From Phyllobacterium myrsinacearum (GTDB lineage: Bacteria > Pseudomonadota > Alphaproteobacteria > Rhizobiales > Rhizobiaceae): 64,000 nucleotides of DNA. The stretch spans positions 682,001 through 746,000 of the forward strand of contig NZ_PVBT01000001.1 of the NCBI RefSeq assembly GCF_002980555.1, in the 5' to 3' direction. This document shows, piece by piece, positions 1,668 to 57,394 of this stretch (the stretch's first letter is position 1; each line of letters begins with the position of its first letter). The notes under the pieces are model-generated. The model was not told the DNA's origin, did no database searches, and saw only the letters and a program-made list of their open reading frames with translations. The translations under genes and the position numbers were made by a program.

Positions 1668-2126
1668 TATGTGCGCCTTAGAGCCTTTCCTGCTTAAATA
1701 GAATCGTTCTGCCGGAGGGAATTTGGTTCAAGGTCGAGGGGTTTGGCGAGACCGATGCCTTTCCATCGGGCGAAGCCGAAGCCCGATGGGATTGGGCCAA
1801 ATTCACCCGGCCCTCCGGGTTTCCGGCTGGCGGACACCCACTTTGTCAGGCAGCGTCGTCCGATGGGTAAACATCGGCCTCGCTGCCTTCCGCGTGGATT
1901 GTCTCGCCATCCGGGAAACAGAACTGGTTCTATTTAAGCAGGAAAGGCTCTAATTGCTACAGTGACATCAAGTCAGAGACTCGATATGTGTGGGGATGTT
2001 GACTGATAGAGCAAACAATTCAAGTGCTTCTAAGGCTACGGGACGTCATGCGGAGCACGCGTGGATGGTGCCAGCGGTTAAGAAGCCTTATGTACTGATT
2101 TTCAGATCCAGGGACGCCCGAGGCGA
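1668..2126. other. 459-bp gene-free interval between epimerase and mlaF
   Basis: The first 285 bases are almost entirely the palindromic element at 1678-1953. The remaining 173 bases up to mlaF hold no gene I recognise. A 44-codon reading frame beginning ATG at 1996 ends in TGA at 2128-2130, overlapping the mlaF start as ATGA, but its sequence matches nothing I know. A permease (MlaE) gene would be expected here and is not visible. Confidence 0.6.
1678..1953 (+). repeat. Structured palindromic element, copy 1
   Basis: A 276-bp element closed by 26-bp perfect inverted arms (1678-1703 and 1928-1953) that begin TTAGAGCC and end GGCTCTAA. Inside are nested stems: 1712-1719 with 1811-1818, 1719-1726 with 1797-1804, hairpin 1763-1771/1781-1789 (CCATCGGGC), 1819-1824 with 1914-1919, and a two-step hairpin 1848-1855/1881-1888 plus 1860-1865/1872-1877. 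The core is nearly identical to copy 2 (54235-54592), and its right half matches copy 3 (56885-57157, opposite orientation), yet the arms differ between copies. No convincing protein is encoded. Confidence 0.9.
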
Positions 2127-53901: not shown

Positions 53902-53970
53902 GACAATTATGTATATTGCGATTCCAATTGAGTCAATCCAAGACAATTGGCAGTGCAATTCGAGTCAATT
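53902..53970. promoter_or_regulatory. Candidate MocR operator repeats
   Basis: CAATTGAGTCAAT at 53925-53937 and CAATTCGAGTCAAT at 53956-53969, about three helical turns apart, plus an inverted CCAATTG/CAATTGG pair (53924-53930, 53944-53950). All lie in the gap between the MocR-type gene and the DUF1127 gene. Confidence 0.4.
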
Positions 53971-53991
53971 CGGCTCGATAGGATGGATGTT

Positions 53992-54237
53992 ATGGGTACA
54001 ATTGATGCAATTGAAAGAGAATGCTCCGATGTAGTGCGCGCACGCCGCGACGTGCCAACAGGCGTATTGGGTCACAATCCGACGGCGTTCCGCCGCATGA
54101 TGGAATGGTTGTCCGTGGCTGCGCGAAAGCACAACACGCGCATTCATCTGAGTGAGCTTTCCGCTGAACAGCTGAAGGACATCGGAATGACGCCGTTTGA
54201 CGCGTTGCGTGAGTCACGCCGTTTCTTCTGGGATTAG
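53992..54237 (+). CDS. DUF1127 (YjiS-like) small protein 1
   Basis: 81 residues from ATG 53992 (AGGATGG at a spacing of about 7). The DUF1127 helix pair is at the C-terminus: RKHNTRIHLSELSAEQLKDI, then GMTPFDALRESRRFFWD. DUF1127 proteins are Arg-rich, can bind RNA or act as translational modulators in some alphaproteobacteria. Its TAG stop is the first TAG of palindromic element copy 2, so the element begins exactly at the end of the coding region. It is divergent from the MocR-type gene. Confidence 0.85.
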   Translation: MGTIDAIERECSDVVRARRDVPTGVLGHNPTAFRRMMEWLSVAARKHNTRIHLSELSAEQLKDIGMTPFDALRESRRFFWD

Positions 54238-54592
54238 AGCGGTTTGCGACCATATTGAATCGTTCTGCCGGAGGGAATTTGGTTCAAGGTCGAGGGGTTT
54301 GGCGAGACCGATGCCTTTCCATCGGGCGAAGCCGAAGCCCGATGGCATTGGGCCAAATTCACCCGGCCCTCCGGTCGAACCGCATTTCTGCCGAAATGCG
54401 GATAATTCGACCGGCAAGTATGAAAGCTTGTTGGTTTGCGCAGCAAACCAACGGCTGGGTTTCCGGCTGGCGGACACCCACTTTGTCAGGCAGCTTCGTC
54501 CGATGGGTAAACATTGGCCTCGCTACCTTCCGCGTGGATTGTCTCGCCATCCGGGAAACAGAACTGATCCAATATGGCCGCAAACCGCTCTA
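54235..54592 (+). repeat. Structured palindromic element, copy 2 (enlarged)
   Basis: 358 bp. Arms 54235-54260 and 54567-54592 pair at 24 of 26 positions and differ from those of copy 1 except for the outer TAGAGC/GCTCTA. The core 54261-54375 is almost the same as in copy 1. Unlike copy 1 it carries an extra module at about 54373-54456: an outer stem GGTCGAA/TTCGACC (54373-54379, 54406-54412) around the hairpin CCGCATTTC/GAAATGCGG (54380-54388, 54393-54401), and a second hairpin TTGGTTTGC/GCAAACCAA (54431-54439, 54443-54451). The remainder parallels the right lobe of copy 1. Confidence 0.9.
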
Positions 54593-56884: not shown

Positions 56885-57157
56885 TAGAGCCCTTTCTGGC
56901 CATATTGGCCGTATTCTGTTTCTCGGATGGCGCGGCAATCCGCGCGGAAGGTGGTGAGGCCGATGTGGTTCATCGGACGAAGGCGCCTGACAAAGCGGGT
57001 GTCCGCCAGCCGGAAACCCGAAGGGACGGGGCCTGTTGCGCCAATTCCTGCGCAAAGCCACTCGCCCGCACGCAGAGTGCGGGTCTTCCTGTCTTTGCTT
57101 GATCTTGTCGCAACATGCCTCCGTCAGAATAGGCCAATATGGTCAGAAAGGGCTCTA
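56885..57157 (-). repeat. Structured palindromic element, copy 3, inside the purS-purQ gap
   Basis: 273 bp in the opposite orientation to copies 1 and 2. Arms 56885-56910 and 57132-57157 pair at 25 of 26 positions. The half next to purQ aligns with the right lobe of copy 1, including CCGATG/CATCGG. The half next to purS has different sequence but equivalent stems: TGTTGCG/CGCAACA (57034-57040, 57109-57115), GCAAAG/CTTTGC (57052-57057, 57093-57098) and hairpin CCCGCAC/GTGCGGG (57065-57071, 57077-57083). Its outer TAG is the purS stop codon. Confidence 0.9.
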
Positions 57158-57394
57158 TACAAGCTCCACCGCGTAATCTTCGATGACGGTATTGGCGAGC
57201 AGCTTTTCGCACATCGCCTTGACGTTGGCTTCGGCAACGGCGCGGTCCTTGGTGTCGATCTCCACATCAAAGATCTTGCCCTGGCGTACGGATGCAACGC
57301 CATCGAAACCAAGACTGCCCAGCGCGCCGACAATTGCCTTGCCCTGCGGGTCAAGAACGCCATTCTTCAAGGTTACAGTGACACGTGCCTTCAT
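57155..57394 (-). CDS. purS: Phosphoribosylformylglycinamidine synthase subunit PurS
   Basis: 79 residues. KARVTVTLKNGVLDPQGKAI, ALGSLGFDGVASVRQGKIFD, CEKLLANTVIEDYAVEL. Structural link between PurL and PurQ in the FGAM synthase complex. GGAG lies upstream of the ATG. Its TAG stop codon lies at the end of element copy 3, which separates it from purQ. It follows purC by 33 bp. Confidence 0.95.
   Translation of the reverse strand: MKARVTVTLKNGVLDPQGKAIVGALGSLGFDGVASVRQGKIFDVEIDTKDRAVAEANVKAMCEKLLANTVIEDYAVELV

Follow-up and report, generated by a model that had tools for sequence, protein, structure and literature searches.

A family of short palindromic elements in Phyllobacterium with diverse but mutually paired terminal arms

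The three palindromic elements found in a Phyllobacterium myrsinacearum sequence of 64,000 nucleotides (the whole of this analysed stretch is called the window here) belong to one family, which is probably best described as a non-autonomous, MITE-like element of approximately 274 bp that is mobilised by IS630 transposases, is under a pairing constraint acting on DNA, carries old arm types and has cores subject to conversion. While its mobility is ordinary, the unusual feature of the family is that the terminal repeats are diverse and their pairing is nevertheless kept.

Element 1 (positions 1,679 to 1,952, plus strand, 274 bp) carries arms of type T1 and, like the two other elements, starts with TAGAGC and ends with GCTCTA. 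Its left arm (1,679 to 1,704) is complementary to its right arm (1,927 to 1,952), the flanking TA copies lie at 1,679–1,680 and 1,951–1,952, and the core, from TTCTGCCGGAGG to GAAACAGAA (1,707 to 1,923), contains two hairpins. This core is 2 to 5% away from several cores of the same genome bearing other arms. A gap of 11 bases separates the element from the ATG (first base 1,667) of a minus-strand gene of the MR_MLE family (684 to 1,667), and a promoter and terminator scan of positions 1,400 to 2,200 gave nothing useful. Element 2 (54,235 to 54,592, plus strand, 358 bp, arm type T2) contains an extra palindromic module (54,375 to 54,456) between both core hairpins, and the TAG at its left end (54,235 to 54,237) closes a short DUF1127 reading frame (53,947 to 54,237) as its in-frame stop. 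Inserts yielding the same core length are found in copies L037, L041 and L121; an extra palindromic module of approximately 84 bp between the core hairpins occurs in some copies from different genomes. Element 3 (56,885 to 57,157, minus strand, 273 bp, arm type T7) is located between purS and purQ, and the left half of its core differs. The TAG at its left end (57,155 to 57,157, minus strand) is the in-frame stop of purS (57,155 to 57,394, minus strand); with purC being upstream of purS, the element is probably transcribed. Short open reading frames overlap the elements. The arm pairing over 26 bp stated in the original prediction was reproduced exactly, with 26, 24 and 25 of 26 positions in elements 1, 2 and 3, respectively, the third being read on the minus strand.

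In the 5.4-Mb assembly of P. myrsinacearum, 13 copies are full and one is partial, with six further short matches to arms or ends. Element matches are present in all 21 Phyllobacterium genomes searched. In a sample of the bacterial family (the family sample), 59 out of 297 genomes, representing 34 out of 109 genera, have matches, some of these being short stretches only. Copies were drawn from 18 stretches of the P. myrsinacearum genome, 80 stretches from 18 other genomes of the genus and 26 named loci, resulting in 102 distinct full copies (103 in a second extraction). The 102 copies are, among the matches listed, those closest to element 1, supplemented by exact matches to the core pattern, and the set is biased towards element 1; as copies are kin, the cells and pairs counted in the following are not independent. 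Two candidates per genome were scored in the family sample. From this sample, 27 loci were taken, of which three lie at contig edges, one is below 19/24 paired positions and 23 reach at least 19/24, a pairing that is partly given by construction. Twenty further loci yielded a paired element in 12 cases and none in eight (threshold 17). The comparison set consists of 29 copies of 230–400 bp with a core match and at least 19/24 pairing, including L168 from Phyllobacterium, and 25 of its copies together with eight Phyllobacterium copies form the set of 33 sequences used for pair exchange. In some relatives, the layout is preserved although the interior has diverged strongly. Arm-only plasmid searches gave matches in two of three cases, and the four loci inspected were two full elements and two lone arms; Sinorhizobium plasmids carry elements of the same architecture (two of the four inspected arm matches). 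Lone T1-type arms with no paired partner within 600 bp were seen on a Phyllobacterium plasmid (L305, 901–935) and on pNGR234b (L303, 701–734).

The existence of a real family whose arms vary between copies yet pair within each of them was confirmed well beyond the three elements of the window. In 98 of the 102 copies, the 24-nt arms are in register and match at a mean of 21.8/24 positions, compared to 14.0/24 for shuffled right arms (sd 0.28, maximum 14.9, 2000 shuffles). For the inner 18 arm positions of these 98 copies, the values are 16.1 and 8.8, respectively. Watson–Crick pairs fill 2138 of their 2352 cells, and most inner positions use several bases. The offsets of the Phyllobacterium arms were picked for best pairing, and a search-matched control was run alongside: an equal offset search gave 21.6 for own arms (102 pairs) and 13.9 for arms of another type (331 cross pairs). 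Chance pairing is ruled out by the shuffled and the search-matched control. Only about six outer bases of the arms are conserved in sequence. Mismatches at positions 15 and 16, present in 29 and 27 of the 98 copies, are scattered over the arm types and form the majority only in T3, T5 and T7. No chimeric copy with unlike arms was recognised among 103 copies; 12 of them failed the formal test and were taken as near-ties, gaps or arm deletions. In many copies, the left arm often has GAATC or GAGTC at its base (positions 23–27), i.e., a GANTC site as methylated by CcrM.

At the clustering threshold used, the 102 to 103 sampled copies fall into 21 arm types, the three largest of which comprise 33 copies from 13 genomes, 22 copies from 13 genomes and 12 copies from 6 genomes. 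Seven shared insertions allowed arms and cores to be compared at one locus: changed sites amount to 8 of 251 in the arms and 120 of 1525 in the cores (p = 0.005), and one position was altered in both arms. Since the arms changed less than the cores, it can be concluded that the arms are conservative at a locus and that their diversity is old. The arm differences are thus mainly differences between old types, and in the copies examined both ends of a copy belong together as a pair. The only candidate for an arm swap in situ, the stop codon shared by L011 and L081, was rejected; two independent insertions are the simplest explanation, as near relatives of both (G003; G001, G004 and G010) show no core match there. 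Copies of T0 have a mismatch at position 9 in two orientations, with G in the left and A in the right arm in 22 copies (12 genomes) and the reverse in seven copies (five genomes). The reversed form could mean that the inner part was inverted when the two arms recombined with each other, a process that PMC3004938 reports for insertion sequences.

Pairing is kept in the core as well. With DNA parameters and G·T pairs disallowed, the median folding z was −8.9 for 21 folded copies out of 103 and −11.9 for all 29 copies of the comparison set. Within the 33 sequences, at least two Watson–Crick types, each in at least two sequences, occur at 22 of 32 pairs of the closing stem, 20 of 42 pairs of hairpin 1 and 16 of 29 pairs of hairpin 2. 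Pair exchange consequently reaches beyond the arms into both core hairpins and across genera, which, together with the kept pairing, bears out the proposal that the fold is under constraint. The element can be regarded as a closing stem with two hairpins, in which pairing is kept over all three while much of the sequence is free.

Core and arm type are nearly unlinked. The core of element 1 (T1) is 1.8% away from that of element 2 (T2), and 2.8% and 2.9% away from those of the T1 copies L010 and L011. Between genomes, cores differ by a median of 0.125 when the arm type is shared and of 0.129 when it is not; within genomes, the corresponding medians are 0.060 and 0.110. On the core tree, which is weakly resolved with 68 of 100 inner branches open, the number of changes in arm type is close to that of shuffled labels for T1 (19 vs. 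20.3), T2 (11 vs. 11.6) and T3 (8 vs. 7.8), and T0 is more clustered than expected by chance (23 vs. 28.3). Genomes cluster on this tree, with 48 changes compared to 68–71 in three shuffles. The core of element 1 differs by 0.018 from the nearest copy of its own genome and by 0.078 from its orthologue; among the orthologue pairs, this is the one case in which gene conversion is clearly supported, the others being not supportive. We infer that the unlinking is most simply explained by gene conversion inside the core that the copies share. Such conversion within a genome would stop at unlike arms and leave the arm pair unsplit.

Insertion takes place at the TA in the middle of YTAR, and this TA is duplicated. 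Of 21 genomes, three (G000, G003 and G014) have an element at the site of element 1, 16 have a cleanly empty site with only one TA, and two have a diverged site that lacks a core match. At the L011 site, which is a stop codon, G000 (T1) and G020 (T0) carry an element with the TA duplicated in each, while G008 and G016 contain a short remnant and the other 17 genomes are without a core match. Of 198 ends, 171 have C or T as the base next to TAGAGC on the outside. Among 88 ends that adjoin a frame of 80 or more open codons, counted on open frames rather than annotated genes, 54 have TAG in frame (p = 7e-8), corresponding to 43 of the 67 elements in this open-frame set. As the element ends start with GAGC, TAG remains after insertion into a TAA or a TAG stop; at L011, the stop is TAA in G003 and TAG in G000. 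The sites of L012 and L013 are empty in G003 as well, with AA instead of TA at L013. Hence, the lineage of P. myrsinacearum appears to have gained a T1 insertion (L011) and T2 insertions (L012, L013) where G003 is empty. The inner left arms of T1 and T2 agree at 8 of 18 bases.

Two sites show apparent repeated insertion at one TA. At the L011 site (L239–L259), two species have an element in the TA of one and the same stop codon, and at the element 1 site (L262–L282), G014 is filled while G008, G009 and G016, which are nearer by flank identity, are empty. The original prediction had held that the elements do not look like an ordinary MITE. This stands insofar as the terminal repeats are diverse with only about six outer bases conserved, but it does not hold for the insertion itself, which is MITE-like with regard to the TA duplication and the IS630 end tip.

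Transposases of the IS630 type are the likely mobilisers, because the TAGAGC tip and the YTA target side are common to both. DDE_3 matches were found in six of the 21 genomes of the genus, five of them over the cut-off, and 13 of the 17 loci have an inward-pointing TAGAGC beyond the match, at a distance of 108 to 139 bp. These 13 loci are L222, L223, L226 and ten contig-edge copies of G002 with different flanks, each preceded by C. In the G002 assembly, contigs are broken at CTAGAGC junctions by a single IS630 element present in ten or more copies (L227, L228, L231–L238). L223 is a complete IS630 copy of 1065 bp with TAGAGC at both ends, and its transposase is split into two open reading frames. 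Two loci were scanned, and one of these frames as well as the L222 frame were named IS630 over the curated cut-off. Judged from sequence, the IS630 transposases of the genus would likely mobilise the element in trans, from a source absent from the P. myrsinacearum assembly. This draft of 44 contigs gave no DDE_3 match (E 0.001), yet copies have inserted there since the split from G003, which speaks against IS630 as the driver. It also lacks a match to Y1 (Y1_Tnp, RAYT) and to DUF4096, the latter being present in nine of 21 genomes of the genus, where none of 25 DUF4096 loci is enclosed by an exact TAGAGC...GCTCTA pair. The ends of L223 agree well over the first ten bases only. With ends matching over such a short length, the long paired arm seems unneeded by this class of enzyme, and the pairing of the arms then needs another reason.

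An alternative explanation is that the ends are sequence-specific only: several IS630 lineages would each have an end sequence of their own that is copied by one arm type, and pairing would be a by-product of both ends fitting one enzyme. The inner ends do vary among the IS630 copies, and the arms matching them best are of different types: among 205 element arms, those of the CTTTCATG type came closest to the G002 end, at 16 of 22 inner positions, while an L222 end and the L226 end were closest to T4 (14) and T0 (14). However, only the G002 end clearly exceeds its control (shuffled maximum 14, 200 shuffles), whereas the five other ends, at 14/22, are level with or one above their shuffled maximum of 13 or 14. 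Neither the pair exchange in the two inner hairpins nor the poor match of the L223 ends past ten bases is accounted for in this way, so that we consider sequence-specific ends possible but rather unlikely. A further reading emphasises shape: a TAGAGC tip and a paired, nearly free stem would suffice, one IS630-type enzyme could move many arm types, the arms would drift as pairs and the cores would exchange freely. In this specific form, it is speculative. Selection on the fold could also be dispensed with altogether if, within a hairpin or cruciform, one arm served as template when its partner is repaired, a change then being either transferred or erased. At the consensus-paired positions of types T0 to T8, deviations in both arms (100) indeed exceed those in one arm (88); a few of the former have unlike bases, and transversions are included. 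The coupling is therefore strong but not absolute, and the earlier statement that the opposite arm changes each time needs to be qualified accordingly. Matched change in both arms was also seen in 5 of 30 pairs of copies that differ at one position, and the low rate of arm change at the shared insertions would fit as well. However, 23 of these 30 closest pairs changed in one arm, and the matched share rises with distance from 0.17 at one changed position to approximately 0.7, which looks like stepwise compensation. Moreover, the mismatch at position 9 is retained in 31 of 33 T0 copies. Blanket homogenisation of the arms was rejected as sole cause on this ground, and a blanket action of the template switching suggested originally is likewise at odds with the mismatches at positions 15 and 16. 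Arm homogenisation in place of selection is doubtful overall.

The preferred reading of a constraint on pairing leaves the choice between DNA and RNA, both of which had been put forward. If selection on the fold acted at the transcript level, be it for the stability or processing of the mRNA or for a role as small RNA, a stem formed by one strand should favour G·U; yet, G·T and A·C are equally common among single stem mismatches (142 and 158, p = 0.39), so RNA is not favoured. In the arms, A·C (94) is at least as common as G·T (69, p = 0.06), and in the cores the numbers are 64 and 73, respectively, for both sets. The location of element 3 between purS and purQ along the direction of transcription, the G·T excess in the cores of the comparison set (32 vs. 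15 A·C) and the slightly better folding of the plus strand in the Phyllobacterium cores (61 out of 103, p = 0.018) lean towards RNA, and excerpts of PMC2873474 describe REP elements and repeats of S. meliloti as transcribed. On the other hand, the strand difference in folding of the whole element gave p = 0.17, and no Rfam match above the gathering score was found in the window. An RNA element is improbable on this balance. The pairing constraint more likely acts on DNA rather than RNA, most likely through a hairpin, a cruciform or a need for two matching ends.

With regard to known systems, the element resembles IS630 transposons and the MITEs driven by them in its TA duplication, its short palindromic form and the TAGAGC tip shared with the IS630 copies of the genus, but differs from such MITEs by terminal repeats that are diverse yet paired and by two inner hairpins with pair exchange. 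As in MITEs in general, there is a TA target-site duplication, evident from the empty sites, and there are terminal inverted repeats, but these are not conserved in sequence. RUP of pneumococcus is an IS630-driven MITE. Parts of PMC2267715 give RUP by name and size and Bru-RS of Brucella with a size of 103–105 bp. REPINs, i.e., REP doublets mobilised by RAYT, are described in sections of PMC3116915 as having conserved ends and a variable paired stretch in which compensatory changes are common. The family is similar to them, as far as these sections go, as a short mobile hairpin with conserved ends and a variable stretch kept paired, but differs in its length of approximately 274 bp, its TA duplication, its GAGC ends and the missing Y1 transposase match in the P. 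myrsinacearum genome. Brucella IS711 duplicates TA in YTAR according to an excerpt of PMC2266754. Going by that excerpt, the IS711 type (IS5/IS427) is alike in target habit alone, the DUF4096 loci of the genus being without the enclosing terminal pair. Portions of PMC2573895 present the rhizobial RIMEs, Sm-repeats and A, B and C palindromes as well as Bru-RS as intergenic repeats with conserved secondary structure. From these partial descriptions, which rather than sequences were compared, they are intergenic structured repeats too, and the RIMEs and Sm-repeats may include relatives of the present family. No description of this family was found in the open-licence papers searched. It is probably new, although of a known kind in its mobility, the comparison with RIMEs, Sm-repeats and Bru-RS resting on descriptions.

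If pairing rather than sequence must be kept, the family constitutes a natural data set on the way in which a substrate is perceived by a DNA transposase, and, if pairing is what the ends keep, a case of terminal repeats that diversify while remaining matched. It offers dated insertions, insertion into stop codons that preserves the stop and what appears to be core exchange across arm types, all accessible in ordinary root bacteria. Even if the ends were plain IS630 ends, it would still be a new and unusually structured MITE family.

Short hairpins that keep the arms and have lost most of the core were observed in the P. myrsinacearum genome (L021, positions 1,252–1,305, as well as L022, L023, L025 and L026) and are possibly internal deletions. 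At L083 and L131, related flanks contain elements that are oppositely oriented and carry different arms.
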